Below the pieces are notes generated by a model that was given only the letters and a program-made list of their open reading frames with translations, was not told the origin of the DNA and searched no databases. A stretch of DNA of 64,000 bases, taken from contig OX387190.1 of NCBI GenBank assembly GCA_947561395.2, forward strand, positions 21,384,858 through 21,448,857. Reading direction: 5' to 3'. This DNA is from Buxus sempervirens. Its lineage: Eukaryota; Streptophyta; Magnoliopsida; Buxales; Buxaceae. Made by a program: the position numbers and the translations under genes. Shown piece after piece: positions 5,143-64,000 of this stretch; position 1 is the stretch's first letter, and each line of letters opens with the position of its first letter.

Positions 5143-5388
5143 TATCCGATGACATATGTCGGATACATAGGAACTTCTTCATATCCGACATTTAATGTCG
5201 GATACATTGCCATGCCTTCGCTGGATTCGCGCCGATTCCTCGACAGATTCGCGCAGAAAATTAAATTTTCGAAATGATTATGTCTTGTATCCGATATTTT
5301 ATGCCGGATACAAAGGAGGTTCTGTGCATCCGACATAAAATGCCGGATACAAAGGAGGTATAGTGTATCCGACATTAAATGTCGGATA
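5143..5388 (+). promoter_or_regulatory. 39-bp-phased palindrome array in U3 of solo LTR B1
   Basis: Five 23-bp units of form TATCCGA-N9-YCGGATA start at 5143, 5182, 5288, 5327 and 5366. Spacing within each group is exactly 39 bp; one GC-rich insert separates 5182 from 5288. The unit at 5182 is a perfect palindrome around its central base. The last unit ends 12 bp before the TATA box. The 16-bp linkers share a weak CAAAGGAGG core. Confidence 0.9.
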
Positions 5389-6550: not shown

Positions 6551-6651
6551 GATCCAACAACTCAGGTCGGATCAACAAAGGCTCATTCGTAACCGGTGAA
6601 GAATGCCAGATACAGTGGCCTACATGTGTTGCCGGCATCTTAGGCCGGCTA
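6551..6651 (+). promoter_or_regulatory. Second, degenerate palindrome array in R-U5 of solo LTR B1
   Basis: Three units with the same N9 geometry start at 6551 (GATCCAA ... TCGGATC), 6590 (TAACCGG ... CCAGATA) and 6629 (TTGCCGG ... CCGGCTA), exactly 39 bp apart. They lie about 1.15 kb downstream of the TATA box, inside the transcribed part. No TATA box follows. Confidence 0.7.
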
Positions 6652-14799: not shown

Positions 14800-14861
14800 T
14801 ATCTGGCCTTAGTTGCCGGATACACACATCCCATAGGTGATCCGGCCTGAGTTGCCGGATC
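14800..14861 (-). promoter_or_regulatory. Second palindrome pair in R-U5 of solo LTR B2
   Basis: Units start at 14800 (TATCTGG-N9-CCGGATA) and 14839 (GATCCGG-N9-CCGGATC), 39 bp apart. In the second unit both outer bases changed together, keeping the arms complementary. Confidence 0.8.
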
Positions 14862-16682: not shown

Positions 16683-16695
16683 GACAAACTTAATG

Positions 16696-16938
16696 TATCC
16701 GGCATTAAATGTCGGATACACTACATGTCCTTTGTATCCGGCATTTAATGTCGGATACACTGAACCTCCTTTGTATCCGGCATACAATATTGGATACAAA
16801 CAAAATTATTTCAAAAATTTAATGCCGCCGCGAATTTGTCAAGCAATCGGCGCGAATCTCGCCGAGCAAATCTTTGTATCCGACATTTGAGTCCGGATAT
16901 GAAGAGGGGCAAGTGTATCCGGCATATTTGGTCAGATA
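16696..16938 (-). promoter_or_regulatory. 39-bp-phased palindrome array in U3 of solo LTR B2
   Basis: Units start at 16696, 16735, 16774, then 16877 and 16916; all steps within a group are 39 bp. The first two are near-perfect TATCCGG-CATTAAATG-TCGGATA forms; the third and fifth have one weak arm. A GC-rich insert between 16797 and 16876 matches the insert in solo LTR B1. Confidence 0.9.
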
Positions 16939-23400: not shown

Positions 23401-23794
23401 CAGGTTACCAAAGAAACGAGAGAAAACACATGCAAAGCAGATCCGAAAACAGGTTCATGCTAGGGGAGAAGACCAACTTGGCAAACACTTTAGAAAATTC
23501 CTATTTTAATGTATGAGTAATACAAAGTAGTGGAGATGCTCAGCTGGTTGTTCTTGCACTCCAAAGCAAGGTGGGAACCCTTCTTTGATGATGGACAGCA
23601 ACTGGAAGCTCTTAGGTACACAGCCTTGCTCCAATAGCAATTAGTCTCCTTTAACTTGCTTGAGAAAGTGAAGAAGAGGAAGAGGGAAACAAGGGTGGAA
23701 ACACTTGAGTGGTGTGGTGAGGTGATGGGGGGCAAAGGGAGTTGAAGAAGGAAGGATTTAGATGAGAAAAAGTGGGGGAAGAAAGCTGGAAACC

Positions 23795-23938
23795 CACAAA
23801 AGAAGCCAACCTTCGACAAGAGGTTGCTGCTGGGCTTTTATAGCCCAGCTTAATGTATCTGGCCTCCACAAAAGAAGCCAACCTTCGACAAGAGGTTGCT
23901 GCTGGGCTTTTATAGCCCAGCTTAATGTATCCGGCCTT
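23795..23938 (-). repeat. 72-bp tandem duplication carrying the TATA box in the C 5' LTR
   Basis: A 72-bp unit (CCACAAAAGAAGCCAACC ... CCCAGCTTAATGTAT) occurs twice head to tail with near-identity. Each copy holds minus-strand CTATAAAAG (the TATA boxes lie near 23835-23842 and at 23907-23914). Only the copy nearer the palindromes keeps the 13-bp TATA-palindrome spacing; the other is preceded by a single half-site remnant. Confidence 0.85.
23907..23914 (-). promoter_or_regulatory. TATA box of the C 5' LTR
   Basis: Minus-strand TATAAAAG, 13 bp from the first palindrome unit at 23928. A second copy lies 72 bp further downstream in the duplicated segment. Confidence 0.75.
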
Positions 23939-24171
23939 GGAGGCTGGATACACTAGAGGGTGTGTGTATCCGGCCTCCAAGGCCGGCTACACTATGCCTA
24001 CAGTGTATCCGATATCAAGTATCGGATACAAAACACCATAATTCGCAAAATTTAATGCCGCCGCGAATTTGTCGAGGAATCGGCGCGAATCTCGCTGGAA
24101 AATCTCTTGTATCCGGCAATGTATGTTGGTTACACACCAAGGTATGTGTATCCAACATATTTGGCCGGATA
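23928..24171 (-). promoter_or_regulatory. 39-bp-phased palindrome array in U3 of the C 5' LTR
   Basis: Units start at 23928, 23967, 24006, then 24110 and 24149: the same 3+2 arrangement and 39-bp step as in solo LTR B2. Arms vary (TATCCGG/CCGGCTA at 23967, TATCCGA/TCGGATA at 24006), but the N9 spacing is kept. Confidence 0.9.
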
Positions 24172-40449: not shown

Positions 40450-40540
40450 TGTAGACACCCCAAATTGCACAAACAATCATCAAAAATCATTATCTCCTGG
40501 AAAGCCAGCACAGAATTTGAAGAAAATAAACTTTTACCTG

Positions 40541-40680
40541 TATCCGGATACTCAATCCGGATACAAGTACTCTTTCCCGTATCCGGATACTCATACCGGA
40601 TACGTGTGAGCCTTGGCGTATCCGGTACCATGTACCGGATACCTTAAGGCTCTTTGTTATCCGGTCTGATGTACCGGATA
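40541..40680 (+). promoter_or_regulatory. 39-bp-phased palindrome array in U3 of the A 5' LTR
   Basis: Four 23-bp units TATCCGG-N9-CCGGATA start at 40541, 40580, 40619 and 40658: three consecutive steps of exactly 39 bp. Both 7-bp arms are perfect in all four units, while the 9-bp centre differs each time. The array ends 157 bp before the TATA box, unlike the 12-13 bp in the C family. Copies in the 3' LTR start at 59808, 59847, 59886 and 59925. Confidence 0.95.
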
Positions 40681-40837
40681 CCGTAAGTTTGCTCAAAATT
40701 AGGGTTTTCCGAGAGCTTTTCACTTTTACCATCATGTCCCTCATTAAATGAGGGGAAATCGCGGAAATAACCTTAGGGTTTAGGTTTGAGGGGTTCTAGA
40801 CATTAAGTTGTGTCTACCAATGACCTTAGCCCTTGCC

Positions 40838-40845
40838 TATAAATA
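40838..40845 (+). promoter_or_regulatory. TATA box of the A 5' LTR
   Basis: CCTATAAATAGGAGCC context, a canonical plant TATA box; identical at 60105-60112 in the 3' LTR and 62366-62373 in the third LTR. Confidence 0.85.
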
Positions 40846-42642
40846 GGAGCCACCTCCTTGAGCAAATGACACAACTCTTGTTTTGAATTCTCGCAAAGAA
40901 GAACTCCAAGAGAAGAAGAAAACCGCTGTGGAATCGCCTCCAGCACTCAGGTAAGCCTCAACTTTTCTTTTTATTTTCTGTCTTTACATTCCTAGATCTA
41001 GATCTCTTCTTCTACCTTTCTGTAGTGTAAAGCCTTGTTTGCATGTGTGGAAATCCTTCCCCGGCTCAAAGTATCTCAAGACTCCCCTAGCCGTAAAACG
41101 TGAAGGCGGATCTAGGAGAAACGAGACTGGGGATTGACCCTAGTGCTAGAACCTATGTAGCATAAGGCCTTTTTGATTGATTGTAAACCGTTCCATATTC
41201 AAAGTACCCTTGATTATCTTAAAGAGAACAGAGGGAAACGATAATGGAACGGAACCCTAGGCTATGCTAGAACCTATTTTATTGAATCTATATGCATGTG
41301 TATGGATCTTGCTAGGTTTTTTTCACTTTTGCACACATATCACTATTTTGGCGGGATAGGCTCATATTTGGGGTTTATTGCATTTATTGTGATAAATCTC
41401 AAATAAATGGCCTCAATCAATTCTGGAATGCCTTTCGGATGATTTTGAAGTATTTGTGTTCATCTTACACGAATTTCATTTTTTATCAATTTTCGGATTT
41501 GGTTTTTACTCAAAAATGGCTTAGCTTGACAGCACCTGTGCCCCTACTTCGGACGTCCGTAACTTCATCATCCGGATGAATTTTGGGACGATTCCAGAAC
41601 CATGGGAAAGGTGAGGCTGTCTAGTTTATGTCCACCAAATTTCATGATTTTCTATTTAGCCGATTTTTGACACCTTTCTGTCGAAGTTAAGTGGACAGTT
41701 CAGGTCCAAGTACAGAACTTGTCACTTCGACGGACCGCCATGTGTTCGTTTTAAGTCCGATTCGAGTGATTTTTGTTCCTGAGTACTCCTTTATGAGTCT
41801 ATTTTCAAATCCAATTGGTTTCATAATTTTTGAACTCCATTTGAATTATTGGTAGCCGATTTACTCAGAACTGCTCATTTGCATTTTTCTGGGTAAATCT
41901 GTGATCTTCGGGGCCTGTTCGGGAGACCACCCAAGGCACATCCGAAGGGATTTTTGTATGAGGCTAGTTTCTATGGAAAGATGGCCATACAAACTTCAAT
42001 CACACCAAATTTCACGGATTTCTATGTAGTGGATTTTTCTAGACAATTTTCCAAAGTTGCCCATTTACCACTTTTTCAAAATCCACAACAGAACTTTAAA
42101 GGAGTATAACTCCTAGATTTCTCACCGGAATGAAGTGAAATTTTGCATGAGACTCTTGTTTACCCTAATCTTTCAAATGGATTTGGTTTGGTTCAATTCA
42201 GAATTGGATTTGAATGATTTCAAGACAAAGGATCTTACTTTTTACCAAAATTCCCGGATTTGCCTCAACTTGGTTTTTGCCACTTTTGCTTTGATTTCCA
42301 TCTTTTGAGATATTCCAGAAGTGATATTGACATAAGAGATGATCTAAAATCCATTTAGATCTTAATGTGAAAATATCATACATTGTTCCTTTTTCAAGGC
42401 TTTTTCATGATTTTTAGCAAGCTTTCTTACATTATTTTTTGCATGAACATACACTTGGCAACCACTTCGTGTGGATGAATGGGGGTGCCTAACACCTTCC
42501 CCCGTTCATAATCTAATCCCCTTACCCATCTCTGGATGTGATTTTTAAGTAGGATTATTTTTTATCCTAGAATGTTTCTTTTGGCTATTTTTGCATACTT
42601 TTGAATCTTTGGTGTCCATTCTCACCCCAAAATCATGAATGG

Positions 42643-42652
42643 TGGCGACTCT
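42643..42652 (+). promoter_or_regulatory. PBS-like decamer in U5 of the A 5' LTR
   Basis: TGGCGACTCT is identical to the first ten bases of the true PBS 84 bp downstream. It is conserved at the corresponding place in all Tat-type LTRs here. Confidence 0.6.
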
Positions 42653-42726
42653 CCCAATTTTTGCGTTGAGCCCGTGTGTTGACGGAGGGACGATCACTCC
42701 GGTGATTTTTTCCCATGTCTCACAAC

Positions 42727-44108: not shown

Positions 44109-44248
44109 TAACCGGCAACTCAGGCCGGTTAATAACAATCCGGCTCATATCCGGTATATATTTCCGGATAAAAAGGCATATGCGTGAATCCGGTTATGGT
44201 AACCGGATACAATAAGGCATATTATTATCCGGAATGTTATACCGGATA
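44109..44248 (+). promoter_or_regulatory. 39-bp-phased palindrome array in the leader of element A
   Basis: Four units start at 44109 (TAACCGG-N9-CCGGTTA), 44148, 44187 (AATCCGG-N9-CCGGATA) and 44226, with steps of exactly 39 bp. The first unit has both arms changed symmetrically from ATCC to AACC. It lies 1.4 kb downstream of the LTR and 1.3 kb upstream of gag; no TATA box is seen within 30 bp on either strand. Confidence 0.92.
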
Positions 44249-44547: not shown

Positions 44548-45430
44548 AAAAACCCTTTGGTTGGTTATTTTTATCAATCAAATCAAACAAAAAAAAATGA
44601 AAACCTTGGTTGGTTATTTTTATCAATCAAATCAAAAAAAGTGGGACACTTGGAAGCCCTAGAATATTCCATGAAAACCTTGGTTGGTTATTTTTATCAA
44701 TCAAATCAAACAAAAAAAATGAAAACCTTGGTTGGTTATTTTTATCAATCAAATCAAAAAAATTGGGACACTTGGAAGCCCTAGAATATTCCATGAAAAC
44801 CTTGGTTGGTTATTTTTATCAATCAAATCAAACAAAAAAAAAATGAAAACCTTGGTTGGTTATTTTTATCAATCAAATCAAAAAAATTGGGACCCTTGGA
44901 AGCCCTAGAATATTCCATGAAAACCTTGGTTGGTTATTTTTATCAATCAAATCAAAACATTTGTGGGATACTTGGATAGAGTAGTCCAAGACACCTTTGG
45001 TTGGTTATTTTTATCAATCAAATCAAAACATTTGTGGGATACTTGGATAGAGTAGTCCAAGACACCTTTGGTTGGTTATTTTTATCAATCAAATCAAAAC
45101 ATTTGTGGGATACTTGGATAGAGTAGTCCAAGACACCTTTGGTTGGTTATTTTTATCAATCAAATCAAAACATTTGTGGGATACTTGGATAGAGTAGTCC
45201 AAGACACCTTTGGTTGGTTATTTTTATCAATCAAATCAAAACATTTGTGGGATACTTGGAAGCCCTAGAATTTTCCAAGACACCTTGGTTGGTTATTTTT
45301 ATCAATCAAATCAAAAAAATTGGGACCCTTGGAAGCCCTAGAATATTCCATAAAAACCTTGGTTGGTTATTTTTATCAATCAAATAAAAAATTTATGGGA
45401 CCCTTGGAAGCCCTAGAATATTCCAACACA
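44548..45430 (+). repeat. Tandem array in the leader of element A
   Basis: About 13 copies of a 31-bp core (TTGGTTGGTTATTTTTATCA + ATCAAATCAAA) separated by alternating linkers of three types: a short AAAAAATGAAAACC, a 45-bp GGGACACTTGGAAGCCCTAGAATATTCC type, and a GGGATACTTGGATAGAGTAGTCC type that forms a near-identical 67-bp run of four to five units. The nested periods show successive local amplifications. The core's GGTTGGTTATT / AATCAAATC content is highly AT-rich. Frames through it are not genes. Confidence 0.9.
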
Positions 45431-45538: not shown

Positions 45539-47278
45539 ATGGAAGCTAACATGTTTTATTCATTTTTTACTCAGGTACATTTACACTTATTTGCAGTCAT
45601 AGCTCCCGTGACCAGATCCAAAGCAAGAGCCATGAATACTGAAGAGAACCAAGCCCAAGCTACCATCCCCGCTCAGGACTTTACTCAGCTGCAGGAGCAA
45701 GTGGCCGGTCTGGCCAAAATGCTGGGAGACTTACTGGCGGCTCAGGCCCAACAGGCCCAAGCCCCGAACCAGGCATCTACTTCCCATCAGGCACCACCAC
45801 CTCAGGCCTACATTCTGCCTCCGGTTCAGCCCATGCCTGAGCCCATTTCTGAACCAGTCCCTGAACCCATTCTGATCAGGGAAAATATGGCGGAGTCTGA
45901 GAAAGAGCTGGAGAAAGAAAAGGCCCGAGATGAGATGGAAAAGAAGATGCTGCTGAGGATAGAGAGGATTCAGGCAGAGCTGAAAGAGGTGAAGGGGGGA
46001 GGCAGCCATGCAGGCACCACCTTCGAAGACCTGTGCATGTACCCGGACGTCTGTCTACCGGCTAAGTTCAGGTGCCCGGATTTTGACAAGTTTGATGGCA
46101 CGGGCTGCCCATTAAGCCATCTGAAACTATACTGCGGGGCCCTGTGCCAGTTTGGCCGGGACGATGGAATACTGATCCAGCTCTTCCAGAGGAGTCTGAC
46201 CGGGTCAGCCCTTCGGTGGTTCGCTACAGTGGACCATGGAAGGATTAGAAGGTGGAAGGACTTGGCCGATGCTTTCCTGGACCAGTACAAGTTCAACTCT
46301 GAGATCGTGCCGGACCGGTACGACATGATGAGGATGACCAAGGGGAAGGATGAACCGGTACGGCAGTAAGCCAAGAGATGGAGAGAGGCCGCCTCCCAGG
46401 TCAGGCCACCTATGCAAGAGCCGGAGATGATCTCCACATTTATGGGCACACTGGGGCAGCCCTTTTACAACCATCTGGTGGGCCAGATCACCACCAACTT
46501 TGCAGCCCTGGTGCAGGTGGCTGACCGGATTGAAGAAGGGGTCAGGTCAGGACGGCTGATAGACTACTCGACCCTGACTGGGCAGTCTGAGTCCTCGGCC
46601 TCCATGGCCCAGAAGAAAGGGGCCGGATTCAAAAAGACGGGGGCCCGAAAAGAAGGGGAGGTGAACCTGGTCCAGGCTCCTCCCGCCAAGAAGCCACTGC
46701 ACGTCAACATCTCGGCACCCCAACAGGCCCAGCAGGCCCAGCAGTCGTACCAGACCCCGCTGAATGTCAACTTCCCTCCCTCTGTGCCAGCTAACACAAG
46801 GAGGACTTTTTCTAAGGAGGAGCGGGATGCCTGGTTCGCAGCAAGAAAGAACCGGGTTTTCACCCCTCTACCAATATCTCTTTCCCAACTACTGCCAACC
46901 TTGCTGAAAGGGGAATACTTGACTCTGAAGGAGCCTAACCCGAATGCCACCAGGGGAAGAAATTTTGACACATCGGTCACCTGTGATTTCCACATGGGTG
47001 CACCAGGGCATTCTACTGATAACTGCTGGGTGCTGAAGCATGCGGTCCAGGACCTGTTGGACCAGAAGGCCTTGGTGTTCAACACTGCTGCACCGGCCCC
47101 GTCCGGGAATGATATTGGGCAGAACCCTCTGCCGTACCACAATGGGGCAGGCCCATCCAACTCCATCACAGCCATATCCACCACCAGAAGGGCCTTTGAC
47201 CCATCACAGCTCATAGCACCTGTGGGGACTACAGTCCAGGTCTGATTTTTCCCAGAGGAGGAAGAGGAGGAGATCAAC
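45539..47278 (+). pseudogene. Element A gag (two nonsense codons)
   Basis: One frame of 580 codons broken by TAA 46367-46369 (Tyr expected, as in VREYAKRW of element C) and TGA 47243-47245, just before an acidic FFPEEEEE stretch (likely Trp). Order: glutamine-rich coiled-coil region, proline-rich segment, charged helix (EKELEKEKARDEMEKKMLL), gag core (LPAKFRCPDFDKFDGTGCP to LDQYKFNSEIVPDRYD), and a zinc-knuckle-like CDFHMGAPGHSTDNC at about 46981-47025. The first ATG at 45539 may not be the true start; ATG 45632 precedes the conserved part. The frame continues directly into protease. Confidence 0.9.
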
Positions 47279-48571
47279 ATGGTCTCCCAAAAAAATAATC
47301 TTGCTGCTGAGGACATAAGCTCCTCCTTAAACCGGGTCTCTTCTCTGATGGCCCAGATAAATACTGCAAGGCCTCCATTGGTCTTCAATTGCAGTCCACC
47401 CACTTATTCCCCATCCAAGCCGTCTAAGGCTCCACTGGTCATCGATCTTGACCCCACCACTGCTTCCATCACTTCTTCTGTCCCCACCAAATCCAAACTT
47501 CAACCCCTGGTTGTAAATGTGCAGCCAGCCCATACTATCCCTAAACCGGCCCATACATCCCGGTCCAAACTCCAGCCACTAGTGGTTGACATCCCTAAAT
47601 TAGCCTATTCAGAGGCCGCTGTACCATGGAACTACAGCGAGGGAATCACGGCTACGGTTCCAGTGGTTAGAAACCCGAACCAGGAGGAGGTGAATCTCAT
47701 GACGAGGTCAGGGAGATGTGCAGGGGGTGAAGAGAAAGAGAAAGAGACAGAAGTAGAAAAAGAAAAAATAGAAAAAGAGAATGAAGAAAAAAGAAAACAG
47801 AAGGGAAAAAATAAAGTAGGAGAAGACATCCCCCAGGGTGCAGAAAATGAGGCAGCAGACCTCATAAAAATAATCAAGAAAAGTGAATTCAATCTTGTGG
47901 ATCAGCTGAACAAGGTCCCGGCCCAGATTTCAATACTGGGCCTTTTGCTGAATTCCGAAAAGCATAGGGATGCATTGTTAAGGGTGCTACAGAGTGCACA
48001 CGTATCCCAGACAATTGATCCGGACCAGCTTGGCAAAATGGTTGGTCAAATCTTGTCACATAATGTCATAAGTTTCTCAGAGGGTGAGATCAGCCCAGGT
48101 GGGTGTTATCATGTGGACCCTTTGCACATCACTGTGCTTTGTAAGGGCTGCATGGTTGCACGGGTTTTAATTGACAACGGGTCGGCGTTAAACGTTTGCC
48201 CGTTAATCACTTTTACCAAGCTGGGCCTGGACCAGTCAAGGATCAAACGGAATGGGCGGATAGTGAGGGCTTTTGATAGCTCCAAGACCCACTCCCTAGG
48301 GGAGATTGAACTGCCGGTCACAATTGGGCCGAATATCTTTAACATCACATTTGAGGTGATGGATATACCCGCAGCCTTCAATCTGCTCCTAGGAAGGCCG
48401 TGGATACATTCGGCTAGGGCAATACCATCCACGCTCCACCAGAGGGTGAAATACGTAAGAGGGCAAAGGGTGATAACAGTCCTAGCCGAAAACTTGGTGC
48501 CACCCATTGTGTCACCTGATGTACCCCTAATCAATGTGGACTTGACTGTTGACAAGATTGCATTCCAATAG
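47279..48571 (+). CDS. Element A aspartic protease region
   Basis: 430 codons, in frame with gag. The first half is a proline/serine-rich spacer and a highly charged lysine/glutamate stretch (about 47720-47830). The protease motif LIDNGSALNVCPL has its Asp codon at 48173-48175, and LLLGRPWIHSA lies about 75 residues on. It would cleave Gag-Pol. The frame ends TAG 48569-48571, and the RT frame begins by overlapping its last base, so expression of RT needs a frame change or splicing, as known for protease/RT in Ogre. There is no G-patch-like tail, unlike element C. Confidence 0.88.
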   Translation: MVSQKNNLAAEDISSSLNRVSSLMAQINTARPPLVFNCSPPTYSPSKPSKAPLVIDLDPTTASITSSVPTKSKLQPLVVNVQPAHTIPKPAHTSRSKLQPLVVDIPKLAYSEAAVPWNYSEGITATVPVVRNPNQEEVNLMTRSGRCAGGEEKEKETEVEKEKIEKENEEKRKQKGKNKVGEDIPQGAENEAADLIKIIKKSEFNLVDQLNKVPAQISILGLLLNSEKHRDALLRVLQSAHVSQTIDPDQLGKMVGQILSHNVISFSEGEISPGGCYHVDPLHITVLCKGCMVARVLIDNGSALNVCPLITFTKLGLDQSRIKRNGRIVRAFDSSKTHSLGEIELPVTIGPNIFNITFEVMDIPAAFNLLLGRPWIHSARAIPSTLHQRVKYVRGQRVITVLAENLVPPIVSPDVPLINVDLTVDKIAFQ

Positions 48572-50108
48572 TGGAATGCCATTTCCCTGAAGGTTCTAAT
48601 GGGCCTTCGTCTTCAGGGGAATTATGTTTAGAAGGCCCACAAAAAACCCAAAAAGATTTTTCTATTTTTTCTAGAAAATTTAAACTTTTCAAAAAGGTCC
48701 AAACCACTTATGAGCCATACAATCAGACCGAATTAGACCAGGTTGAATATGACTTCGACCTTGAGCTCGACTTTGATCTCATGGGGGTCGAAGAAGAGAC
48801 CGAGGTCGAAGAAGAAGACGTTCCAAAAGAAATTGAATACCAATTGGAACGTCATGAAAAGGGGGTCCAACCTAATATTGAGGAGACCATATCCATAAAC
48901 CTTGGGACCAAAGATGACCCAAAAATTGTAAAAATCGGGTCATGCTTGTCTGATGTGCAGAAAATTGAAATGTCACAATTCTTGGCAGACTACAAAGATG
49001 TGTTCGCTTGGTCATATCGGGACATGCCGGGGTTGGACACGGACATGGTGGTGCACAAGTTGCCAATTTTGCCAGGGGTTAAGCCGATTAAGCAGAAGCT
49101 GAGAAGATTGAAACCTGAATGGACTCTGAAGGTCAAGGATGAAGTGGTCAAACAGTTCCAAGCTGGATTTCTGGCAGTCTCTACGTACCCTGAATGGCTC
49201 GCAAACATAGTGCCGGTACCAAAGAAGGACGGGAAGGTCCGAATGTGCGTGGATTATAGAGACTTGAACAGGGCAAGCCCAAAGGACGATTTTTCGCTTC
49301 CACACATCGACATTCTGGTCGATAATACTGCGGTACATAGCCTGTTCTCTTTTATGGATGGGTTCTCGGGATATAATCAGATCAAGATGGCTAAGGAAGA
49401 TCAAGAGAAAACAGCATTTATCACACCTTGGGGCACATTCCACTACACAGTCATGCCGTTTGGGCTTAAGAACGCTGGGGCAACATACCAGCGGGCAATG
49501 ACTGCACTATTCCATGACATGATCCACAAAGAGATGGAAGTCTACGTGGACGATATGATTGCCAAATCATGCAAAGAGGAGGACCACTTGATCAATCTGA
49601 AGAAAGTGTTTGATCGGCTCAGGAAGTACAGTCTACGGCTTAACCCGGCTAAGTGCGTCTTTGGGGCTACATCAGGAAAGTTACTGGGGTTTATAGTGAG
49701 CCGAAGAGGAATCGAAATTGACCCGGCTAAAGCCAAGGCCATAATTGAAATGCCAGCACCTAGAACCGAGAAGGAGGTCAGGGGGTTTCTTGGAAGGATT
49801 CAATACATAAGCCGGTTCATAGCACAGCTCACGGCTATCTGTGAACCAATTTTCAAACTTTTGAGGAAAGATAACCCTACGGTCTGGAATGAGGACTGCC
49901 AGCAGGCATTTGACACAATAAAGAGGTATTTGCTAAACCCACCTGTGCTAGTACCACCAACTCCAGGAAGACCACTGATCCTGTACTTGTCAGTGTTGGA
50001 AACGTCGATGGGATGTGTCTTGGGGCAGCATGATGAGACTGGTAGAAAAGAAAGGGCAATTTACTATCTGAGTAAAAATTCACGGAATATGAAGCCAAGT
50101 ACTCACCA
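48571..50108 (+). pseudogene. Element A reverse transcriptase and start of RNase H (frameshifted at the end)
   Basis: Frame from 48571 (no ATG needed in a polyprotein). An acidic linker is followed by RT fingers (KKDGKVRMCVDYRDLNRASP), palm motif A (FMDGFSGYNQI), motif B (PFGLKNAGATYQRAM) and YVDD (about 49543-49554), then thumb and gypsy RNase H start (DDCQQAFDTIKRYL, IYYLSK). Within AGTAAAAATTC (50071-50081) one A is missing from the A-run relative to the family, so the frame shifts and runs to a stop at 50133. RT copies element RNA into cDNA. All catalytic Asp residues are intact; only the single-base loss separates it from the downstream frame. Confidence 0.92.
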
Positions 50109-52157
50109 TTGGAAAAGACTTGCTGTGCTCTAGTGTGGGCTACTCAGAGGCTAAGGCATTATTTCCTTAGTCACTCCACACTATTGATATCCCGGATGGA
50201 CCCGCTGAAGTATTTATTTGAGAAACCGGCACTGACTGGCAGGACGGCAAAGTGGCAACTACTACTGTCCGAGTTTGACCTCACATACATCACCCAGAAG
50301 GCGATCAAGGGTCAAGCCATAGCTGATCACCAGGCTGCACATCCTTTGCCAGAATATCAACCCTTGAAGACCAACTTCCCAGATGAAGCAATTCTGTACA
50401 CTGAAGAGGAAGACAGTGAGAGTTCTTGGCAGATGTTCTTCGATGGGGCCGCCAACATGAATGGGAATGGAATAGGGGCAGTCTTGGTTAAACCAGATGG
50501 TTCACATATCCCGATTGCAGTAAAGCTGAGATTCCAGTGCACCAATAACATAGCAGAATATGAAGCATGCATAATTGGATTGCAAGCAGCCATGGATCAT
50601 GGAGTAGAGGAACTTGACGTATACGGGGATTCGAGTCTTATCATCTTCCAAACAACTGGTGAGTGGAAAACCAAGGATCACAAATTGATCCCCTATCACC
50701 AGTATTTGGAAGAAATAAGCACAAATTTCACTCGAATTTCCTTCAACTATATGCCAAGGGCCAAGAATCAGTTTGCGGATGCTCTAGCAACCTTGGCTTC
50801 AATGGTCAGCATACCAAAAGGAGTAGACATCAGACCGCTGGAAATTGGGGTCCGAGATGAACCGGCTTACTGTCTCGTTCTAGAGGGAGCACCAGAAGAA
50901 GAAACACCATGGTTTCAAGATATCAAAAATTTCTTGAACAATCGGAGTTTGCCAGAAAATGCCACTGCTACTGAGAGGAGGACAATACAGAGATTGGCTG
51001 GTCAATTTCTGCTAAGTGGTGGACATGTGTACAAGAGGTCACATAATGACATTCTGCTAAGATGTGTTGCCAAGGCTGAATCGGAAAGGCTGATTGAGAC
51101 TGTACATGGAGGAGTCTGTGGGCCCCATATGAGTGGGCACATGCTGGCTAAGAAGATCCTGAGGCTGGGATACTACTGGACGACCATGGAGCATGATTGC
51201 TGTATACATGTCAGGAGGTGCCATCAATGCCAGATATATGCAGATAACAAGCATGCACCCCCTGGTGAGCTGCACAACATGACATCACCCTGGCCCTTCT
51301 CTATGTGGGGCATAGATGTCATCGGCATGATCTCCCCTAAGGCATCGAATGGGCACAGATTCATCTTGGTGGCGATTGATTATTTCACTAAGTGGGTGGA
51401 AGCAGCATCATATGCAAATATCACAAGCAACCATGTGATCAAATTTTTGAAGCACAACATTATTTGTCGCTATGGACTGCCAAGTGCCATAGTATCAGAC
51501 AATGCTTCAAATATTAAGAACAAGGACATGAAGAAGATGTGTGAGCAGTTTCAGATCACCCACCACAGGTCAGCTCCGTATAGGCCAAAGATGAATGGGG
51601 CAGTAGAAGCAGCAAACAAAAACATAAAGAAAATCATTCAGAAGATGGTAGTGAACTACAAGGCTTGGCATGAAATGCTGCCACTTGCTCTACATGCCTA
51701 CAGAACCTCGATCCGGACTTCAACTGGGGCAACCCCGTACTCCTTAGTCTATGGGATGGAAGCAGTCTTGCCCGTGGAAGTAGAGATCCCTTCACTCCGA
51801 GTGCTCATGGAAGCAGAACTAGAAGAAGCTGAATGGATCCAGTCAAGACATGATCAACTTAACCTGATAGAAGAAAAGCGGTTGAAAGCGCTTTGTCATG
51901 GACAGTTGTACCAGAAGAGAATGGCCCGGGCCTACAATAAGAAGGTGAGGCCCAGAACTTTCCAAGAAGGAAACTTAGTGCTAAAGAAAATTCTACCATT
52001 TCTGGAAGATCCTCATGGTAAGTTCAAGCCCAATTGGGAGGGCCCATATGTCGTCAAGAAAGTCCTATCAGGGGAAGCACTCATCTTAACAGAAATGGAT
52101 GGGTCAGATTTTCATGAGCCCATTAACTCTGATGCGGTAAAAAGGTATTTTCCTTGA
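50109..52157 (+). CDS. Element A RNase H, archaeal-type RNase H and integrase
   Basis: 682 codons open. It begins inside gypsy RNase H (CCALVWATQRLRHYF). A second RNase H follows with FFDGA, AEYEA, GDSSL and QFADALA acidic residues, the Tat-specific aRNase H. Integrase then has the HHCC finger (CGPHMSGHM ... CHQCQ), the DDE core WGIDVIG, VSDNASN and NGAVEAANKN, and a C-terminal domain ending AVKRYFP at 52155. Integrase would join cDNA ends to host DNA. The true protein is fused to the upstream RT; the 50109 ATG is internal. Every catalytic residue is present. Confidence 0.93.
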   Translation: MEKTCCALVWATQRLRHYFLSHSTLLISRMDPLKYLFEKPALTGRTAKWQLLLSEFDLTYITQKAIKGQAIADHQAAHPLPEYQPLKTNFPDEAILYTEEEDSESSWQMFFDGAANMNGNGIGAVLVKPDGSHIPIAVKLRFQCTNNIAEYEACIIGLQAAMDHGVEELDVYGDSSLIIFQTTGEWKTKDHKLIPYHQYLEEISTNFTRISFNYMPRAKNQFADALATLASMVSIPKGVDIRPLEIGVRDEPAYCLVLEGAPEEETPWFQDIKNFLNNRSLPENATATERRTIQRLAGQFLLSGGHVYKRSHNDILLRCVAKAESERLIETVHGGVCGPHMSGHMLAKKILRLGYYWTTMEHDCCIHVRRCHQCQIYADNKHAPPGELHNMTSPWPFSMWGIDVIGMISPKASNGHRFILVAIDYFTKWVEAASYANITSNHVIKFLKHNIICRYGLPSAIVSDNASNIKNKDMKKMCEQFQITHHRSAPYRPKMNGAVEAANKNIKKIIQKMVVNYKAWHEMLPLALHAYRTSIRTSTGATPYSLVYGMEAVLPVEVEIPSLRVLMEAELEEAEWIQSRHDQLNLIEEKRLKALCHGQLYQKRMARAYNKKVRPRTFQEGNLVLKKILPFLEDPHGKFKPNWEGPYVVKKVLSGEALILTEMDGSDFHEPINSDAVKRYFP

Positions 52158-53093: not shown

Positions 53094-54753
53094 CTAATCC
53101 CTATCTCCTAGCCGCTCCTCAAGCTCCCGAATCCGAGCTGCCTGAGCTGCAATGACTCCTGAAGCCCCCTCTGCAGCGGGATCACTCAGGAAGGAAATGA
53201 CCTCATCTGAAAGGGCCTGCCTGATCCGCATACTCCTAAGGCTGGCCAAAGTATCCTGGTACTTCTGCCGGATCATACGGACCTCGAAGCGACGGGCTTG
53301 CCTCTGCTCCTCCAGCTTCTCTTCCACGGCAATACGGCGGGAGATCTGTTCCTCAAGCTGCCTCTCCAGATAAGCGCCCTGTATCCTGAGCTCTTGGGCC
53401 TCCCGTACCCATATCTGCTGAAGCCGCTTATGAGAAGCCCGCTCAGACTCTAGAATGTCCTCATAGGTGGGAGCCAAGACTACAGGAGGATCTTCGGGTA
53501 CCGGGGCCTGAGTCTGTATCTGCTCCTTGATCCAGAAGAGATAATCCTTCACATGGGCTTCTGAGAAGACTGGACCATGCATAAAGCGGACATAGGACCA
53601 CTCCTTCATCAACCAGGCATTCAGCTTCATAGAAAGGGGCCCAAGACGATCCTCATATCCACATGGGATGATAATCCCCTGGGTCGCTCGGAACTGACGC
53701 AGGACCCGCAGAGGAAGATACAACACTGCATGCTTCAGGCCCGCCAGAATCAGAAAGTTGCGGTCTCGGAAGCTAATCACTGTCTCCGCATTAGGCTGAT
53801 AAGTACCAGGCCATCTCACCTGGTCATCCTGAAGCGAGCCCAAGAAAGTGAACCAGCCCTGTTTGCCCCCTGGAATATCGGGGCACCCCCTGTTGCTCAT
53901 CAAGAGAGGGACTTTCAGACTCGGGAAGAAGTGTCGATTGATCTCTTCAATCTGGCTCAAATGATCAAGTAGCCAAAGCTGCAAAGAAAGAGAGAGGTGT
54001 CAGCACATTGTATAAAAAAAAAAAAAAAAAAAAAAAACTTTTTACCTGCAGAATCTGGGCACATGCTAGGAAGCGTTTCGACTTCCTATTGTAGCAGTCG
54101 GTTAAGGCCTGATATATCCCAGCTAAAATCATAGGGGCCAACCTCTCCCGCTCCCTAACCTGGCATATCACGGAAATCAAGGCCAAGTCCACCTCGTCAT
54201 CCTCCCGTGGGAAAAGCAACTGGTTGACCACTATCAGGGTCAACGCATTGAATCGGGCCTCCTTATCTTCTCCCCTCAAAAGCTTCTCAGTCAAAAAAGC
54301 CTTAGATAGGGTCAAAAGGGTGTCAGAATCCCCCAAGTCCTTCTTCCCTATGCCCAAAAAAGTAGAAGCTTCCTTTTTGTAACTGGGCCTTAGAGGTGGA
54401 TTCACCACCTTCTCATCAAACCTCAGGCCCAGGATGGTTTCCACCTCTTCAATGGTTGGGGTCATCTCATGGGTCCCAAAACGGAACAAGTTGAGATCAG
54501 GAACCCAATGACCAATCATGGCCTCTATAATCTCCCACCTAAAGGGAACCTTGGGAATGAGCAGGGTATGGCCTAGATTGGTAGTACCCCATCTCCTCTC
54601 CTCATCTAAGGACATAGAGTTAACCCACCTTGTGTAAAAGGAATCCACAGGGTTGTACCTAGTGAGATTTGGGGGTTTTGATCTAAAAGGCTGTTTTGCA
54701 GGGGAGGCAGTGTGGACAGACAATAATGGGGCAGAAGATGATCCGGATTCCAT
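53094..54753 (-). CDS. Antisense gene 2 of element A: PMD-like (DUF7745-type) protein
   Basis: Minus strand, two exons: 54753-54046 (236 codons) and 53978-53094 (294 codons plus TAG). The intron is GT-AG, phase 0, with a long T-run before the acceptor. No internal stops. The N-terminal exon has RWGTTNLGHTLLIP and FGTHEMTPTIEEVETILGLR, typical of the plant-mobile-domain superfamily; exon 2 has LAGLKHAVLYLPLRVLRQF. The C-terminus is a long coiled coil (about residues 400-530). A similar but broken ORF lies in sense orientation in element C. Promoter: TATA box 54870-54863 and a four-unit palindrome array. ATG 54753 is preferred over 54846 because the upstream residues are a low-complexity phenylalanine/leucine run lying in the 5' leader. 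Function unknown; PMD proteins of the MAIN/MAIL1 type affect silencing and genome stability. Confidence 0.82.
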
Positions 54754-54883: not shown

Positions 54884-55021
54884 TATCCGGTAACTCAGAC
54901 CGGATACAAAGGCTTTGGTAATATCCGGATAAGTATACCGGATACAAGGATCCCATGAATATCCGGTATAACATACCGGATACAAAGACCAATCCATGTA
55001 TCCGGTATGTCAGACCGGATA
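54884..55021 (-). promoter_or_regulatory. Palindrome array upstream of antisense gene 2
   Basis: Four units TATCCGG-N9-CCGGATA, arms perfect in all, start at 54884, 54922, 54960 and 54999 (steps 38, 38, 39). They lie between the stop of antisense gene 1 (55229) and the TATA box of gene 2. Arms are identical to those in the LTR; the 9-bp centres differ from the LTR copies, so this is not a recent copy of the LTR array. Confidence 0.93.
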
Positions 55022-55228: not shown

Positions 55229-57910
55229 CTACTCCTGTGCAGGATCATCCCCGCGTCCTCGGCTGCGTCCACCTCTACGGCGTCTCCCCCAAAGGGCTCG
55301 GCCTCTAGAGTATGCAAGAATCCGCTCGGCCGCATGGCGAGGATGCCGACCCACCACCTGCTGAAGATGATACTCCAAGCAATAATCCTCGAGATCCGGG
55401 GGAGGAGCAGGAGTAGAATCGGGGGAAGAAGCCTCGGGCTCAGCAGCAACCGGCCCAACTGGGCCCTCATCCAAAGCATCCTCTGCTCCCGCAGATCCAG
55501 AAGGCCCAGCATCAGCAGCAGAGGGGCCAGGATCAGAAATAGCTGAGTCCACAGAAAAGAGAAAAATCAGAAGATTCAGATATAAGGAAGAATAAAAGAG
55601 GAGAATAAAAAGAAGATCATACCAGGAATGTCTGCAGAAGGAGCAGGGGGATCCGGCTCGTCAGGATCAGCAGCTGGGACATCCACAGGATCAGAGGCCC
55701 GAGCAGGAGATGGGTCAGGAATCAGGAAATCATGCTCAAAGAAGGCATCCTGATCATGGACCGGGCCCTGCACAAGTCAAACAAGCATATCAGAATAGCA
55801 GAAACAGGAAAATAATGAAAGAAATGAACATATGAGAAGGCCAGATACCTGTCTAGACTGGAGCTCAGCAACTAGGGCCTCCAGCTCCCTGATCCGGGCA
55901 TCCCGCTGGGCCACGACCGCATCGTGCTCCGCGATCATATCATCGATCGCAGCCCGCTGGCTCTCGAACCGGTCCCGAATGGAGTTCAGCTCGTGTACCT
56001 GCCAATAAGAACGGAAGCATGGTCAGAAAGGCATAAGGAAGGAAAAGAGGATAAAAATGGGAAGAGTACAAGGCTTACCGTGTCCTCATGGATCCGGATA
56101 CGGATCCCGCCAATCTCAGTCACCCCAGCACGAGTGGGTCGATCCATCAAGCATCCGATAGACACCCGCTGGAACCACTCGTCATAATCTCCAGCTACTG
56201 TAAGCCCCTCCGCATCCAAGAAGTGATCGAACTGATCAATATCAAAGCCCGGGAGGAGTGTGTCGGGACCCACAGCAGGAGGAGGGACGGGGATGCGAAG
56301 TGCGCCAGTGTGCTGGTAGTACAGGCGCTCTCCCAAGTACATCACCCTACCAAGCCTCCCAAGGAAGCACTGGTAAGGCTGAAGTCGGAGATCTCTCTCA
56401 AAAGCATCCTGTACTGCCATCTCACGGGCAACTCCGACATCCACGTCATCTGGACGGGATGGAATGAGCTGCAAAGAAGCAAAGTGGTCAGATACAGTCA
56501 AGATACAGGAAAGAAAATAAAAGAAAAAAATAGAGGACTTACATCAGATCGGCGTGCACGGTCTAAGTGCACCCGAGCGGTACGAGGCTGGCTCCTATCG
56601 GCATCTCGAACCTGGGCCGACCATCGCAGGGCCACAGGGAAATCCGCAACCTCAGGAACCGGGGAGGGGCGGAAGAAGGTCATGTAGGTGTACATGAACA
56701 CCTAGCAAAAGAAAAATCAGTCAAGAAAAGATAAAGCCTAAAGAATTAAGCTAGACAGATGAATGCAATACCTGTAGAATCTGCCAGAAGAACCGGCTGC
56801 TGACTCCATCGCCTCTCGGGGATGCCAGACCTCGAACTGCCCGGCACAACCCGGCCAAGATGGTCCCATAAATGAGCCGACCCCATGCTAGCTGGCGGGT
56901 CTGATGGAGATCTCTCAAAGCGTCCAGGAAAAGTGGGCTGACGCCGGTCGTATCCTCCGGGAAAAAGCAGCTCCCAAGCATCAGCAGGAATACGTGCCGG
57001 AAGATAGGAATAAATGCAGCATCATCCACAGCCACAGTCCTGTGCCTCCCCTCAAAATGTCGAGCCAGACTCTCCCGCAACCAACTAATGGAGAGCTGGC
57101 CACTCCGCCCATCCCAAGCAGTAGGAGGCAGGGCCTGATATCCCAGGAGAAGTCCCATATCCTCCGCAGAAGGCCGCTCCAAGACGATGGTCCGCCCCGT
57201 CAGAGGAATGCCAGTAATCATCACAAAATCGGAGGGGCGGATCCCCAGCTCCACGTCCGGCAGGTGGAACGACTGTGTCTCTGGAAAGTATCTCTCCATC
57301 ATGGCAAAGATGAGTGGACGGTCGGCTCTGAATGATGGAATGCTGAGGAAGTAATCCAGATGACACCTCCCAAACTCCCGCCTGAGTGCTGGAGAAAGCG
57401 ACTGAGCTAGATCACTAAATCTGCCCCAGCTACCTCGTAAGTGGGAGGAATAATAGGGAAGCGGCACATCTGCCCGGATGCACATAGAAGGATGGCTATC
57501 CAAGCCATGGAGGAGCTCTGTATCATGCACAGAGGCCCTCAACTCCTCAGGAACTCCTGCAAGGGCTACAGCAACCCCCTCCGGAGCCATATCTCTGGCT
57601 CTGCCTCGGCCTCTAACACGGCCTCTCTCGCCCTCAGGGGCCTGATCCTGAACCCGGCCTCTGCCTCGGCCTCGACCACGAGCGGGTGCAACCACGGGCT
57701 GAATTGCAAAGGAACAGCGTGAAGATTTGTACAAGGAAGAAAGAAAGAAAGAAAAAAATTTTGAAAGCCTACCTCAGCAGAGCTCTCTCGAGAGACATCC
57801 AATGGCTCAGACAAGGTGGCACTGGAGCTCGCCTCTGTCCGAGCCCGCGAACTGGAGGGCTGATCAGCTGGGTCAACCTCCTCTCTAACTCGGGAACGAC
57901 CCCTAGCCAT
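55229..57910 (-). CDS. Antisense gene 1 of element A: seven-exon plant mobile domain protein
   Basis: Minus strand exons: 57910-57773, 57698-56772, 56701-56543, 56468-56079, 55998-55849, 55767-55623 and 55542-55229. All six introns are GT-AG and phases fit, giving 740 codons and a TAG at 55231-55229 with no internal stop. The N-terminus is RG-rich (GRGRGRGRV, AT-hook-like). Exon 2 is the plant mobile domain: FHLPDVELGIRPSDFVMITG, ISWLRESLARHF, HVFLLMLGSCFFPEDTTG and LAWGRLIYGTILAGLCR. Exon 5 is a short coiled coil; exons 6-7 are acidic/proline-rich and end with a basic RRRRGGRSRGRG tail. Nuclear nucleic-acid binding is plausible from the basic ends. MAIN/MAIL1-type PMD proteins act in transposon silencing; this copy's role is unknown. 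The ATG directly follows a splice acceptor, implying a 5' UTR intron. Confidence 0.85.
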
Positions 57911-59072: not shown

Positions 59073-59134
59073 GATCCGGATACTCAGGCCGGATACCCGC
59101 AGAGCCTTCATTATCCGGATACACCTACCGGATA
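59073..59134 (-). promoter_or_regulatory. Palindrome pair upstream of antisense gene 1
   Basis: Two units start at 59073 (GATCCGG-N9-CCGGATA) and 59112 (TATCCGG-N9-CCGGATA), 39 bp apart, upstream of the predicted 5' UTR exon. Same module as in the LTRs and in front of antisense gene 2. Confidence 0.88.
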
Positions 59135-59716: not shown

Positions 59717-61986
59717 TGTAGACACCCCAAATTGCACAAACAATCATCAAAAATCATTATCTCCTGGAAAGCCAGCACAGAATTTGAAGAAAATAAACTT
59801 TTACCTGTATCCGGATACTCAATCCGGATACAAGTACTCTTTCCCGTATCCGGATACTCATACCGGATACGTGTGAGCCTTGGCGTATCCGGTACCATGT
59901 ACCGGATACCTTAAGGCTCTTTGTTATCCGGTCTGATGTACCGGATACCGTAAGTTTGCTCAAAATTAGGGTTTTCCGAGAGCTTTTCACTTTTACCATC
60001 ATGTCCCTCATTAAATGAGGGGAAATCGCGGAAATAACCTTAGGGTTTAGGTTTGAGGGGTTCTAGACATTAAGTTGTGTCTACCAATGACCTTAGCCCT
60101 TGCCTATAAATAGGAGCCTCCTCCTTGAGCAAATGACACAACTCTTGTTTTGAATTCTCGCAAAGAAGAACTCCAAGAGAAGAAGAAAACCGCTGTGGAA
60201 TCGCCTCCAGCACTCAGGTAAGCCTCAACTTTTCTTTTTATTTTCTGTCTTTACATTCCTAGATCTAGATCTCTTCTTCTACCTTTCTGTAGTGTAAAGC
60301 CTTGTTTGCATGTGTGGAAATCCTTCCCCGGCTCAAAGTATCTCAAGACTCCCCTAGCCGTAAAACGTGAAGGCGGATCTAGGAGAAACGAGACTGGGGA
60401 TTGACCCTAGTGCTAGAACCTATGTAGCATAAGGCCTTTTTGATTGATTGTAAACCGTTCCATATTCAAAGTACCCTTGATTATCTTAAAGAGAACAGAG
60501 GGAAACGATAATGGAACGGAACCCTAGGCTATGCTAGAACCTATTTTATTGAATCTATATGCATGTGTATGGATCTTGCTAGGTTTTTTTCACTTTTGCA
60601 CACATATCACTATTTTGGCGGGATAGGCTCATATTTGGGGTTTATTGCATTTATTGTGATAAATCTCAAATAAATGGCCTCAATCAATTCTGGAATGCCT
60701 TTCGGATGATTTTGAAGTATTTGTGTTCATCTTACACGAATTTCATTTTTTATCAATTTTCGGATTTGGTTTTTACCCAAAAATGGCTTAGCTTGACAGC
60801 ACCTGTGCCCCTACTTCGGACGTCCGTAACTTCATCATCCGGATGAATTTTGGGACGATTCCAGAACCATGGGAAAGGTGAGGCTGTCTAGTTTATGTCC
60901 ACCAAATTTCATGATTTTCTATTTAGCCGATTTTTGACACCTTTCTGTCGAAGTTAAGTGGACAGTTCAGGTCCAAGTACAGAACTTGTCACTTCGACGG
61001 ACCGCCATGTGTTCGTTTTAAGTCCGATTCGAGTGATTTTTGTTCCTGAGTACTCCTTTATGAGTCTATTTTCAAATCCAGTTGGTTTCATAATTTTTGA
61101 ACTCCATTTGAATTATTGGTAGCCGATTTACTCAGAACTGCTCATTTGCATTTTTCTGGGTAAATCTGTGATCTTCGGGGCCTGTTCGGGAGACCACCCA
61201 AGGCACATCCGAAGGGATTTTTGTATGAGGCTAGTTTCTATGGAAATATGGCCATACAAACTTCAATCACACCAAATTTCACGGATTTCTATGTAGTGGA
61301 TTTTTCTAGACAATTTTCCAAAATTGCCCACTTACCACTTTTTCAAAATCCCCAACAGAACTTTAAAGGAGTATAACTCCTAGATTTCTCACCGGAATGA
61401 AGTGAAATTTTGCATGAGACTCTTGTTTACCCTAATCTTTCAAATGGATTTGGTTTGGTTCAATTCAGAATTGGATTTGAATGATTTCAAGACAAAGGAT
61501 CTTACTTTTTACCAAAATTCCCGGATTTGCCTCAACTTGGTTTTTGCCACTTTTTCTTTGATTTCCATCTTTTGAGATATTCCAGAAGTGATATTGACAT
61601 AAGAGATGATCTAAAATCCATTTAGATCTTAATGTGAAAATATCATACATTGTTCCTTTTTCAAGGCTTTTTCATGATTTTTAGCAAGCTTTCTTACATT
61701 ATTTTTTGCATGAACATACACTTGGCAACCACTTCGTGTGGATGAATGGGGGTGCCTAACACCTTCCCCCGTTCATAATCTAATCCCCTTACCCATCTCT
61801 GGATGTGATTTTTAAGTAGGATTATTTTTTATCCTAGAATGTTTCTTTTGGCTATTTTTGCATACTTTTGAATCTTTGGTGTCCATTCTCACCCCAAAAT
61901 CATGAATGGTGGCGACTCTCCCAATTTTTGCGTTGAGCCCGTGTGTTGACGGAGGGACGATCACTCCGGTGATTTTTTCCCATGTC
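59717..61986 (+). mobile_element. 3' LTR of element A
   Basis: 2,270 bp colinear with 40450-42719. By eye about eight base substitutions separate them and no indels; it lacks the last five bases (TCACA). Palindrome array at 59808-59947, TATA box 60105-60112, PBS-like decamer 61910-61919. Confidence 0.95.
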
Positions 61987-64000
61987 CCCCAAATTGCACA
62001 AACAATCATCAAAAATCATTATCTCCTGGAAAGCCAGCACAGAATTTGAAGAAAATAAATTTTTGCCTGTATCCGGATACTCAATCCGGATATAAGTGCT
62101 CCTCCCCGTATCCGGATAATCATACCGGTACGTGTGAGCCTTAGCGTATCCGGTACCATGTACCGGATACCTTAAGGCCCTTTGTTATCCGGTCTGATGT
62201 ACCGGATACCTTAAGTTTGCTCAAAATTAGGGTTTTCCGAGAGCTTTTCACTTTTACCATCATGTCCCTCATTAAATGAAGGGAAATCGCGGAAATAACC
62301 TTAGGGTTTAGGTTGGAGGGGTTCTAGACATTAAGTTGTGTCTACCAATGACCTTAGCCTTTGCCTATAAATAGGAGCCTCCTCCTTGAGCAAATGGCAC
62401 ACAACTCTTGTTTTGAATTCTCGCAAAGAAGAACTCCAAGAGAAGAAGGAAACCGCTGTGGAATCGCCTCCAGCACTCAGGTAAGCCTCAACTTTTCTTT
62501 TTATTTTTTGTCTTTACATTCCTAGATCTAGATCTCTTCTTCTACCTTTCTGTAGTGTAAAGCCTTGTTTGCATGTGTGGAAATCCTTCCCCGGCTCAAA
62601 GTATCTCAAGACTCCCCTAGCCGTAAAACGTGAAGGCGGATCTAGGAGAAACGAGACTGGGGATTGACCCTAGTGCTAGAACCTATGTAGCATAAGGCCT
62701 TTTTGATTGATTGTAAACCGTTCCATATTCAAAGTACCCTTGATTATCTTAAAGAGAACAGAGGGAAACGATAATGGAACGGAACCCTAGGCTATGCTAG
62801 AACCTATTTTATTGAATCTATATGCATGTGTATGGATCTTGCTAGGTTTTTTTCACTTTTGCACACATATCACTATTTTGGCGGGATAGGCTCATATTTG
62901 GGTTTATTGCATTTATTGTGATAAATCTCAAATAAATGGCCTCAATCAATTCTGGAATGCCTTTCGGATGATTTTGAAGTATTTGTGTTCATCTTACATG
63001 AATTTCATTTTTTATCAATTTTCGGATTTGGTTTTTACTCAAAAATGGCTTAGCTTGACAGCACCTGTACCCCTACTTCGGACGTCCTTAACTTCATCAT
63101 CCGGATGAATTTTGGGACGATTCTAGAACCATGGGAAAGGTGAGGCTGTCTAGTTTATGTCCACCAAATTTCACAAATTTCTATCTAGCCGATTTTTGAC
63201 ACCTCTCTGTCGAAGTTAAGTGGACAGTTCAGGTCCAAGTACAGAACTTGTCACTTCGACGGACCGCCATGTGTTTGTTTTATGTCCGATTCGAGTGATT
63301 TTTATTTCTGAGTACTCCTTTATGAGTCTATTTTCAAATCCAGTTGGTTTCATAATTTTTGAACTCCATTTGAATTATTGGTAGCCGATTTACTCAGAAC
63401 TGCTCATTTGCATTTTTCTGGGTAAATCTGTGATCTTCGGGGCCTGTTCGGGAGACCACCCAAGGCACACCCGAAGGGATTTTTGTATGAGGCTCGTTTC
63501 TATGAAAAGATGGCCATATAAACTTCAATCACACCAAATTTCACGGATTTCTATGTAGTGGAGTTTTCTAGACAATTTTCCAAAGTTGCCCACTTACCAC
63601 TTTTTCAAAATCCCCAACAGCAACTTTAAAGGAGTATAACTCCTAGATTTCTCACCGGAATGAAGTGAAATTTTGCATGAGACTCTTGTTTACCCTAATC
63701 TTTCAAATGGATTTGGTTTGGTTCAATTCAGAATTGGATTTGAATGATTTCAAGACAAAGGATCTTACTTTTTACCAAAATTCCCGGATTTGCCTCAACT
63801 TGGTTTTTGCCACTTTTGCTTTGATTTCCATCTTTTGAGATATTCCAGAAGTGATATTGACATAAGAGATGATCTAAAATCCATTTAGATCTTAATGTGA
63901 AAATATCATACATTGTTCCTTTTTCAAGGCTTTTTCATGATTTTTAGCAAGCTTTCTTACATTATTTTTTGCATGAACATACACTTGGCAACCACTTCGT
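61987..64000 (+). mobile_element. Third A-type LTR, tandem and truncated by the window end
   Basis: Starts at CCCCAAATTG, the ninth base of the LTR, directly after the shortened 3' LTR of element A, and runs to the window end about 250 bp short of the expected LTR end. It is clearly more diverged from both A LTRs than they are from each other. Palindrome units start at 62070, 62109 (one base lost from the right arm), 62147 and 62186; TATA box 62366-62373. So it comes from another family member, not from a duplication of A's own LTR. Confidence 0.9.

Follow-up and report, generated by a model that had tools for sequence, protein, structure and literature searches.

Phased arrays of a 23-bp palindrome at promoters of Tat-type retrotransposons and their antisense PMD genes in Buxus sempervirens

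The closest described feature to the arrays reported here is the RM box of Sireviruses, Ty1/copia retrotransposons whose LTRs carry many short palindromes a short distance upstream of the TATA box, much as ours do (PMC2829016). The palindrome core of RM boxes is a CGG-CCG signature, their sequence, too, is kept across elements of low overall similarity, and further copies precede the accessory ENV gene. A Citrus Sirevirus motif, AATCCGG..CCGGATT, resembles the arms described below. However, the RM consensus has 10-20 letters and belongs to Ty1/copia elements, whereas the present unit has 23 letters, belongs to Ty3/gypsy elements of the Tat lineage and is found before antisense PMD genes (PMC2829016).

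VANDAL transposons are of another kind and their binder, VANC, is known. They also carry short noncoding motifs in tandem, VANC acts on its own family and the target motifs differ by family, whereas the sites here are tied to TATA boxes (PMC10398659). Grande gene23 and Retand TRP28 likewise run antisense to their element, in the region from pol to the 3' LTR. Those of Grande have their own promoter, and a regulatory role has been proposed, but the genes in question are TRP28 rather than PMD, and the excerpted accounts describe no palindromic promoter array (PMC7264820, PMC11963269). In Arabidopsis, the PMD proteins MAIN and MAIL1 are needed to express genes with a common promoter motif. This DOWN motif, CATGCAGTTT in the MORC1 promoter, is unlike the TATCCG arms, and the excerpted accounts do not show direct binding (PMC7156037, PMC9899485). 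The preliminary description of this DNA stated that no Tat feature of this form was known. Among the open-licence PMC papers listed, titles and abstract openings indeed yielded no palindrome array in a Tat or Ogre element, but the similar Sirevirus motifs had been overlooked (PMC2829016). Neither those titles and openings nor the excerpted texts mention a phase of 39 bp, constant distances to the TATA or of 104 bp, a Tat element as carrier or a link to antisense PMD genes.

The window is a stretch of 64,000 nucleotides, and it holds 26 exact units of the palindrome TATCCGR-N9-YCGGATA. Unit pairs with a linker of 14-18 bp occur 12 times, versus 0 in 100 dinucleotide shuffles. All coordinates first assigned to the motif do hold it, the non-exact ones with 1-3 mismatches in the 14 arm letters; the weak units, at 6551, 6590, 6629 and 14839, retain 11-12 of the 14. 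By eye, the arms are usually flanked by TG and CA. Steps between neighbouring units in the window are 39 bp, except for 38-bp steps at 54884/54922/54960 and 62109/62147.

Element A (40450-61992) is bounded by LTRs that are 99.6% identical. Its 5' LTR (40450-42725) carries a four-unit array at 40541..40680 (+ strand), and the TATA box CTATAAAT begins 157 bp past the last unit. The same array occupies 59808..59947 (+) of the 3' LTR (59717-61992), and a further A-type LTR, running from 61987 to the window end, has its array at 62070..62208 (+), with one 38-bp step. Identity among the window's A-type LTR copies is 98-99.6%. At 61987-61992 the 3' LTR of element A abuts the further A-type LTR, which is without its first bases, an arrangement suggestive of an LTR common to two elements or of recombination between them at an LTR. 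Another array lies in the leader (44109..44248, +), and the bases that follow it look, by eye, like a PMD1 core promoter whose TATA box is degenerate. Between this array and gag, the leader also contains 71/122-bp tandem repeats (44557-45408).

The gag-pol region (45539..52157, +) encodes a reverse transcriptase (RT), RNase H (RH), a second RNase H (RVT_3) and an integrase; in the 50076-52154 frame, RVT_3 spans residues 122-240 and H2C2/rve follows at 333-504. A second RNase H (aRH) between RH and integrase marks the Tat lineage, and 57% of Ogre elements have an extra ORF with a PMD domain (PMC6317226). Judged by its predicted domains, element A is a member of the Tat lineage (Ogre/Retand group, Ty3/gypsy). 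It also has a trait of the Ogre subclade, two antisense PMD frames after the integrase, so that predicted domain order and PMD frames together match the Ogre part of Tat (PMC6317226).

The first open frame of antisense PMD1 (53968..54753, -) encodes 262 amino acids from its ATG, with a PMD/DUF7745 match. Close to the end of this frame, a CAG|GTAAAG site hints at a second exon, 53097-53999. Upstream is a four-unit array (54884..55021, -) with steps of 38, 38 and 39 bp, and the TATA box CTATAAAT begins 13 bp past the last unit. The first frame lacks an internal stop in 134 of the best 146 of 6,477 candidate copies, all at least 94% identical; being best matches only, these open frames show many recent copies and not constraint as such. 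A comparison of PMD1 with 5.8 billion proteins left 0 of 627 candidates scored, and PDB sequences gave no match. PMD2 (56754..57773, -) also has a PMD match, and a two-unit array at 59073..59134 (-) lies 1.3 kb upstream of its frame. We infer that this array belongs to the PMD2 promoter. The window copy has no TATA-like box after the array, and six of seven copies of such PMD2-side arrays have one 8-10 bp further on (L154, L155, L157, L158, L162 and L164, read for array and box).

Three LTR copies of a second type, C, are present. LTR1 (4624-7651) is inverted, with its sense on the + strand; LTR2 (13751-17520) and LTR3 (20388-24764) have theirs on the - strand. Just after LTR3 comes a PBS-like TGGCGACTC, and the probable partner of LTR3 is an LTR of the upstream flank (L160) that is 93-98% identical to it. 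Each copy has a distal pair and a proximal triplet of units: 5143..5204 and 5288..5388 (+) in LTR1, 16877..16938 and 16696..16796 (-) in LTR2, and 24110..24171 and 23928..24028 (-) in LTR3. In LTR1, TATAAAAA begins 12 bp past the triplet; LTR2 and LTR3 each have a CTATAAAAG box, with the TATA 13 bp past the triplet. Additional arrays lie inside two of the LTRs, a degenerate one of three units more than 1 kb downstream of the LTR1 TATA (6551..6651, +) and one of two units about 1.8 kb downstream of the LTR2 TATA (14800..14861, -). A C-type frame at 1519-3450 has the order RT, RH, RVT_3, H2C2 and by this predicted domain order is Ty3/gypsy Tat. No PMD match was found in the flank searched for the C-type copy formed by the 20388-24764 LTR and L160. 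Between LTR3 and gag, a frame at 17616-18098 (-) weakly resembles DUF7745/PMD, with 17.3 bits, below the cut-off. It runs in the same direction as the C-type element, whereas the PMD genes of element A are antisense.

The short spacing of the C-type arrays is invariant: all 62 short steps in 22 arrays are 39 bp where 36-42 bp was allowed, and 15 of the 22 arrays are distinct at <80% identity of centre and linker letters. The long step between the pair and the triplet is 104 bp in 17 of 22 arrays and 103-106 bp in every one. By comparison, the nearest upstream anchor, CACGTGGC, lies 135-185 bp from the array (SD 18.9 in the 16 measurable arrays), and another anchor pair, further out, has an SD of 6.7 bp. 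In 23 PMD1 promoter arrays, many of them close copies, 39 bp accounts for 54 of 69 steps, 38 bp for 14 and 40 bp for one. The strict 39-bp period first proposed accordingly holds for C-type LTRs, but not for the window as a whole or for PMD1 promoters, given their 38-bp steps.

Between seven PMD1-type and nine LTR-type representatives, arms are 0.88 identical (0.87-0.89 both within and between array types), a value biased upward because the arms were the search criterion; centres (0.43) and linkers (0.42) are free of this bias. With 39-bp steps and arms at ~0.88 against ~0.43 elsewhere, the claim that centres and linkers have diverged within a conserved geometry is supported. Recent copying of one ancestral array, named at the outset as the observation that would overturn the idea, would leave identical centres and linkers; they are not identical, and linkers that agree in only ~42% of their letters between types mean that the arrays did not arise by recent copying of a single one. 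Gap openings per mismatch were 0.21 inside C-type arrays, 0.22 upstream and 0.47 downstream, and 0.12 inside PMD1-type arrays versus 0.27 and 0.21 in the flanks. These counts did not separate arrays from flanks clearly, since the aligner is liberal with gaps where linkers have diverged, and direct step lengths were used for the geometry instead.

The same spacing dominates the host assembly (676.5 Mb, in which repeat counts may be lower bounds). CGGATA-N16-TATCCG junctions number 26,061 (reversed control, 5). When the linker may be 1-31 bp long, there are 30,489 junctions (control, 990), of which 85% have exactly 16 bp; some of the remainder have a linker of 15 bp or arise where TATCCGGATA overlaps itself. 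Units with a spacer of 0-30 bp total 42,766 (control, 270), and a spacer other than 9 occurs in six of about 100 units among the matches listed, at the start of one contig. A unit plus a further half-site gives 21,993 and 21,830 matches per strand, with none in the control. The pattern of the preliminary description extends beyond the window. Scans of sequence collections for array pairs returned 3 viral contigs, with linkers of 15 or 19 bp, and 78 prokaryotic stretches. The prokaryotic pairs are attributed to chance, with a 16-bp linker in 9 of 85 matches, a 19-bp linker in 16 of 85 and no peak at 16.

A search of the host genome for the palindrome followed by N{3,33} and CTATAAAW, which allowed the TATA to start 4-34 bp away, found 2,564 sites (1264 + 1300), and the reversed control found none. 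The TATA lies 12 or 13 bp past the unit in 99 of 100 among the matches listed (contig C1). The genome-wide search is the TATA-distance evidence free of a 10-13 bp restriction, as the C-type and PMD1 loci read singly had been picked for a TATA at that distance. Among 30 such loci (L112-L141), 18 are PMD1 promoters with four units before the TATA, and first-exon and second-exon queries found PMD1-like sequence just downstream in all 18. The other 12 are laid out as in LTRs: 11 have two units and, after a 104-bp step, three more, and L141 has two plus two. At PMD1 and in C-type LTRs, the last unit directly precedes the TATA, and many arrays are promoter parts. In A-type LTRs the TATA is 156-169 bp beyond the array in seven of seven (four units each; three found in L154), so tight coupling of array and TATA is not general. 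The arrays themselves proved to be real; their core-promoter placement and the second fixed step of 103-106 bp had been overlooked.

The initial statement that arrays occur across all Tat-type elements is not supported. L142, a Ty3/gypsy-like relative and putative Tat element, has an integrase frame and two long antisense PMD frames (807-2438 and 4227-5759 by Pfam, 3.4 kb apart), but 9.5 kb contain no unit and no comparable array before either PMD frame.

Symmetry within units extends beyond the 7-bp arms first recognized. Those arms are present, but the dyad is longer, as positions 8/16 covary too. In 42 non-redundant units (<60% identical outside the arms), complementarity at positions 7/17 is 0.93 versus 0.60 in column-preserving shuffles, and at 8/16 it is 0.64 versus 0.39; 0 of 1000 shuffles reach either value. 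A weak excess at positions 3/21 is equalled by 14 of 1000 shuffles, and the inner pairs 9/15 and 10/14 do not exceed shuffles. As the units are related by descent, the shuffle test overstates significance, and the covariation is supportive, short of conclusive. The symmetric change of both halves matches what would be expected of the inverted-dimer type of site originally suggested. CCG-N11-CGG is the constant part of the units, and CGG-N9-CCG occurs in units with G/C at 7/17 and is missing from A/T units (22 of 106 in C-type arrays). A sub-class of units has the non-palindromic centre CAACTCAGG or its complement. It provides the TATA-proximal unit of many promoters, and a centre of this type also appears in the first unit of several A-type LTRs.

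From the observed motif, spacing, covariation, TATA position and gene order, we infer protein binding, activation rather than repression, and possible cooperativity. The best reading, with a probability of roughly three in four, is that symmetric dimers occupy the arrays as upstream activating sequences of these Ogre/Tat-type retrotransposons and drive both the LTRs and the antisense PMD genes. A dimer would bind each 23-bp unit, approximately TGTATCCGRN-N7-NYCGGATACA, with neighbouring dimers ~39 bp apart and two to four dimers to a cluster. At PMD1 and in C-type LTRs, the last dimer, 12-13 bp upstream of the TATA, would help recruit the transcription machinery. The cluster of A-type LTRs lies 156-169 bp upstream of the TATA, and on the PMD2 side a TATA-like box lies 8-10 bp further on in most copies. 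One factor could then jointly switch on genomic RNA and accessory PMD genes. Against this reading, neighbouring dimers would be on different helix faces, because a 39-bp step corresponds to 3.7 helical turns, and the arrays of the leader, like the additional ones within C LTRs, lie downstream of the LTR TATA. The looser steps of PMD1 promoters and the wide gap between array and TATA in A-type LTRs also count against it.

So, what binds the arrays? Element-encoded and host binders appear about equally likely. That PMD1 or PMD2 itself is the binder is a fair possibility short of even odds, and a half-site comparison bears on it. Across seven elements, G/C letters at 7/17 number 8, 8, 7, 4, 3, 2 and 1 of 8 in PMD1 promoters and, in the same order, 8/8, 7/8, 7/8, 2/8, 0/6, 1/8 and 0/8 in LTRs (Spearman 0.91, p 0.005, the p value being only indicative as the compared elements are related). 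Eight elements were tried; L145 has no LTR partner, L156, L159 and L163 hold no array, L152 has one unit only, and the L154 LTR is without one unit (6 letters, not 8). The agreement fits a family-specific, perhaps self-encoded, binder; it also fits a common age of the sites, A/T being what is left when the outer C of CCGG has been deaminated. The self-encoded binder is opposed by the C-type copy with no PMD match in its flank, though that copy has a weak DUF7745-like frame, and by the excerpted Sirevirus description, which mentions no PMD gene (PMC2829016).

A more specific version, which we regard as somewhat less likely than not, is that the element's PMD protein binds the 39-bp-phased palindromes and activates or un-silences the LTR and the antisense genes, its half-site drifting with the protein in each lineage. 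Were this so, PMD proteins, including host MAIN/MAIL1, would be ancestrally sequence-specific regulators.

The promoter array could equally be real and be bound by a dimer of a host transcription factor on TATCCG-type half-sites, exploited by the elements; we hold this only tentatively. Presumably LOB-domain, GARP and MYB-related families would supply the candidates. The C-type copy has full arrays and no PMD match in the flank searched, and the literature, in the parts excerpted, leaves contact of the host PMD complex with chromatin unsettled. Unrelated Ty1/copia Sireviruses carry multi-copy CGG/CCG palindromes upstream of the TATA, and the Citrus Sirevirus motif AATCCGGCTWRCCGGATT has nearly identical arms, but its spacer between 7-bp arms reads as 4 bp, not 9 (PMC2829016). 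Nor does one common factor predict that LTR and PMD1 half-sites agree within elements.

These alternatives bear on the role of Tat antisense accessory genes and of PMD proteins. The array, present in the LTR and on the PMD2 side as well as at the PMD1 promoter, makes a concrete target for inexpensive binding assays. Should a PMD protein prove to be the binder, the retrotransposons would encode a promoter-specific regulator of their own; a host factor would instead meet tens of thousands of sites in the host genome. Either way, the motif is a strong marker to find and classify these elements and their promoters.

Direct activation is also what separates the best reading from an improbable one in which the arrays recruit or block silencing, as targets of an anti-silencing protein or as an insulator, integration or nucleosome signal. 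VANC provides a precedent, as it binds tandem short motifs in noncoding regions of its own VANDAL and removes silent marks (PMC10398659), and exact units contain CCG/CGG sites open to methylation. The fixed 12-13 bp to the TATA, however, points to direct core-promoter contact.

It is very improbable that the arrays are what neutral decay has left of a single ancestral 39-bp tandem repeat, with spacing inherited as elements were copied. All arrays may share ancestry, the A-type LTRs of the window are 98-99.6% identical, and gap counts inside and outside arrays do not clearly differ. Even so, such leftovers do not account for linkers at ~42% beside arms at 88% between array types, for 62 of 62 steps of 39 bp next to an interval with an SD of 19 bp, or for the fixed TATA position. 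RNA hairpins (for packaging, translation or dsRNA for silencing) or DNA cruciforms are just as hard to credit: the dyad has compensating changes, and leader and downstream C LTR arrays would be transcribed, but the TATA-linked arrays are upstream of the TATA and would not be part of the RNA in which they should act, complementarity is not in excess at the inner pairs 9/15 and 10/14, and at 7/17 A.C exceeds G.T on C-type sense strands (16/106 versus 5/106; 3/92 versus 5/92 in PMD1 arrays).

Two minor features of the C-type LTRs were noted alongside the arrays. In LTR3, a 72-bp tandem duplication (23794-23937) has doubled the TATA box together with some of the proximal palindrome. Upstream of C-type arrays are two G-box-like CACGTGG(C) sites, at ~17105-17136 (-) and 4942-4976 (+), which may be a further host-factor site; in 16 C-type arrays, the last of them is 81-102 bp past a repeated AACTGAGTTTGCT motif.
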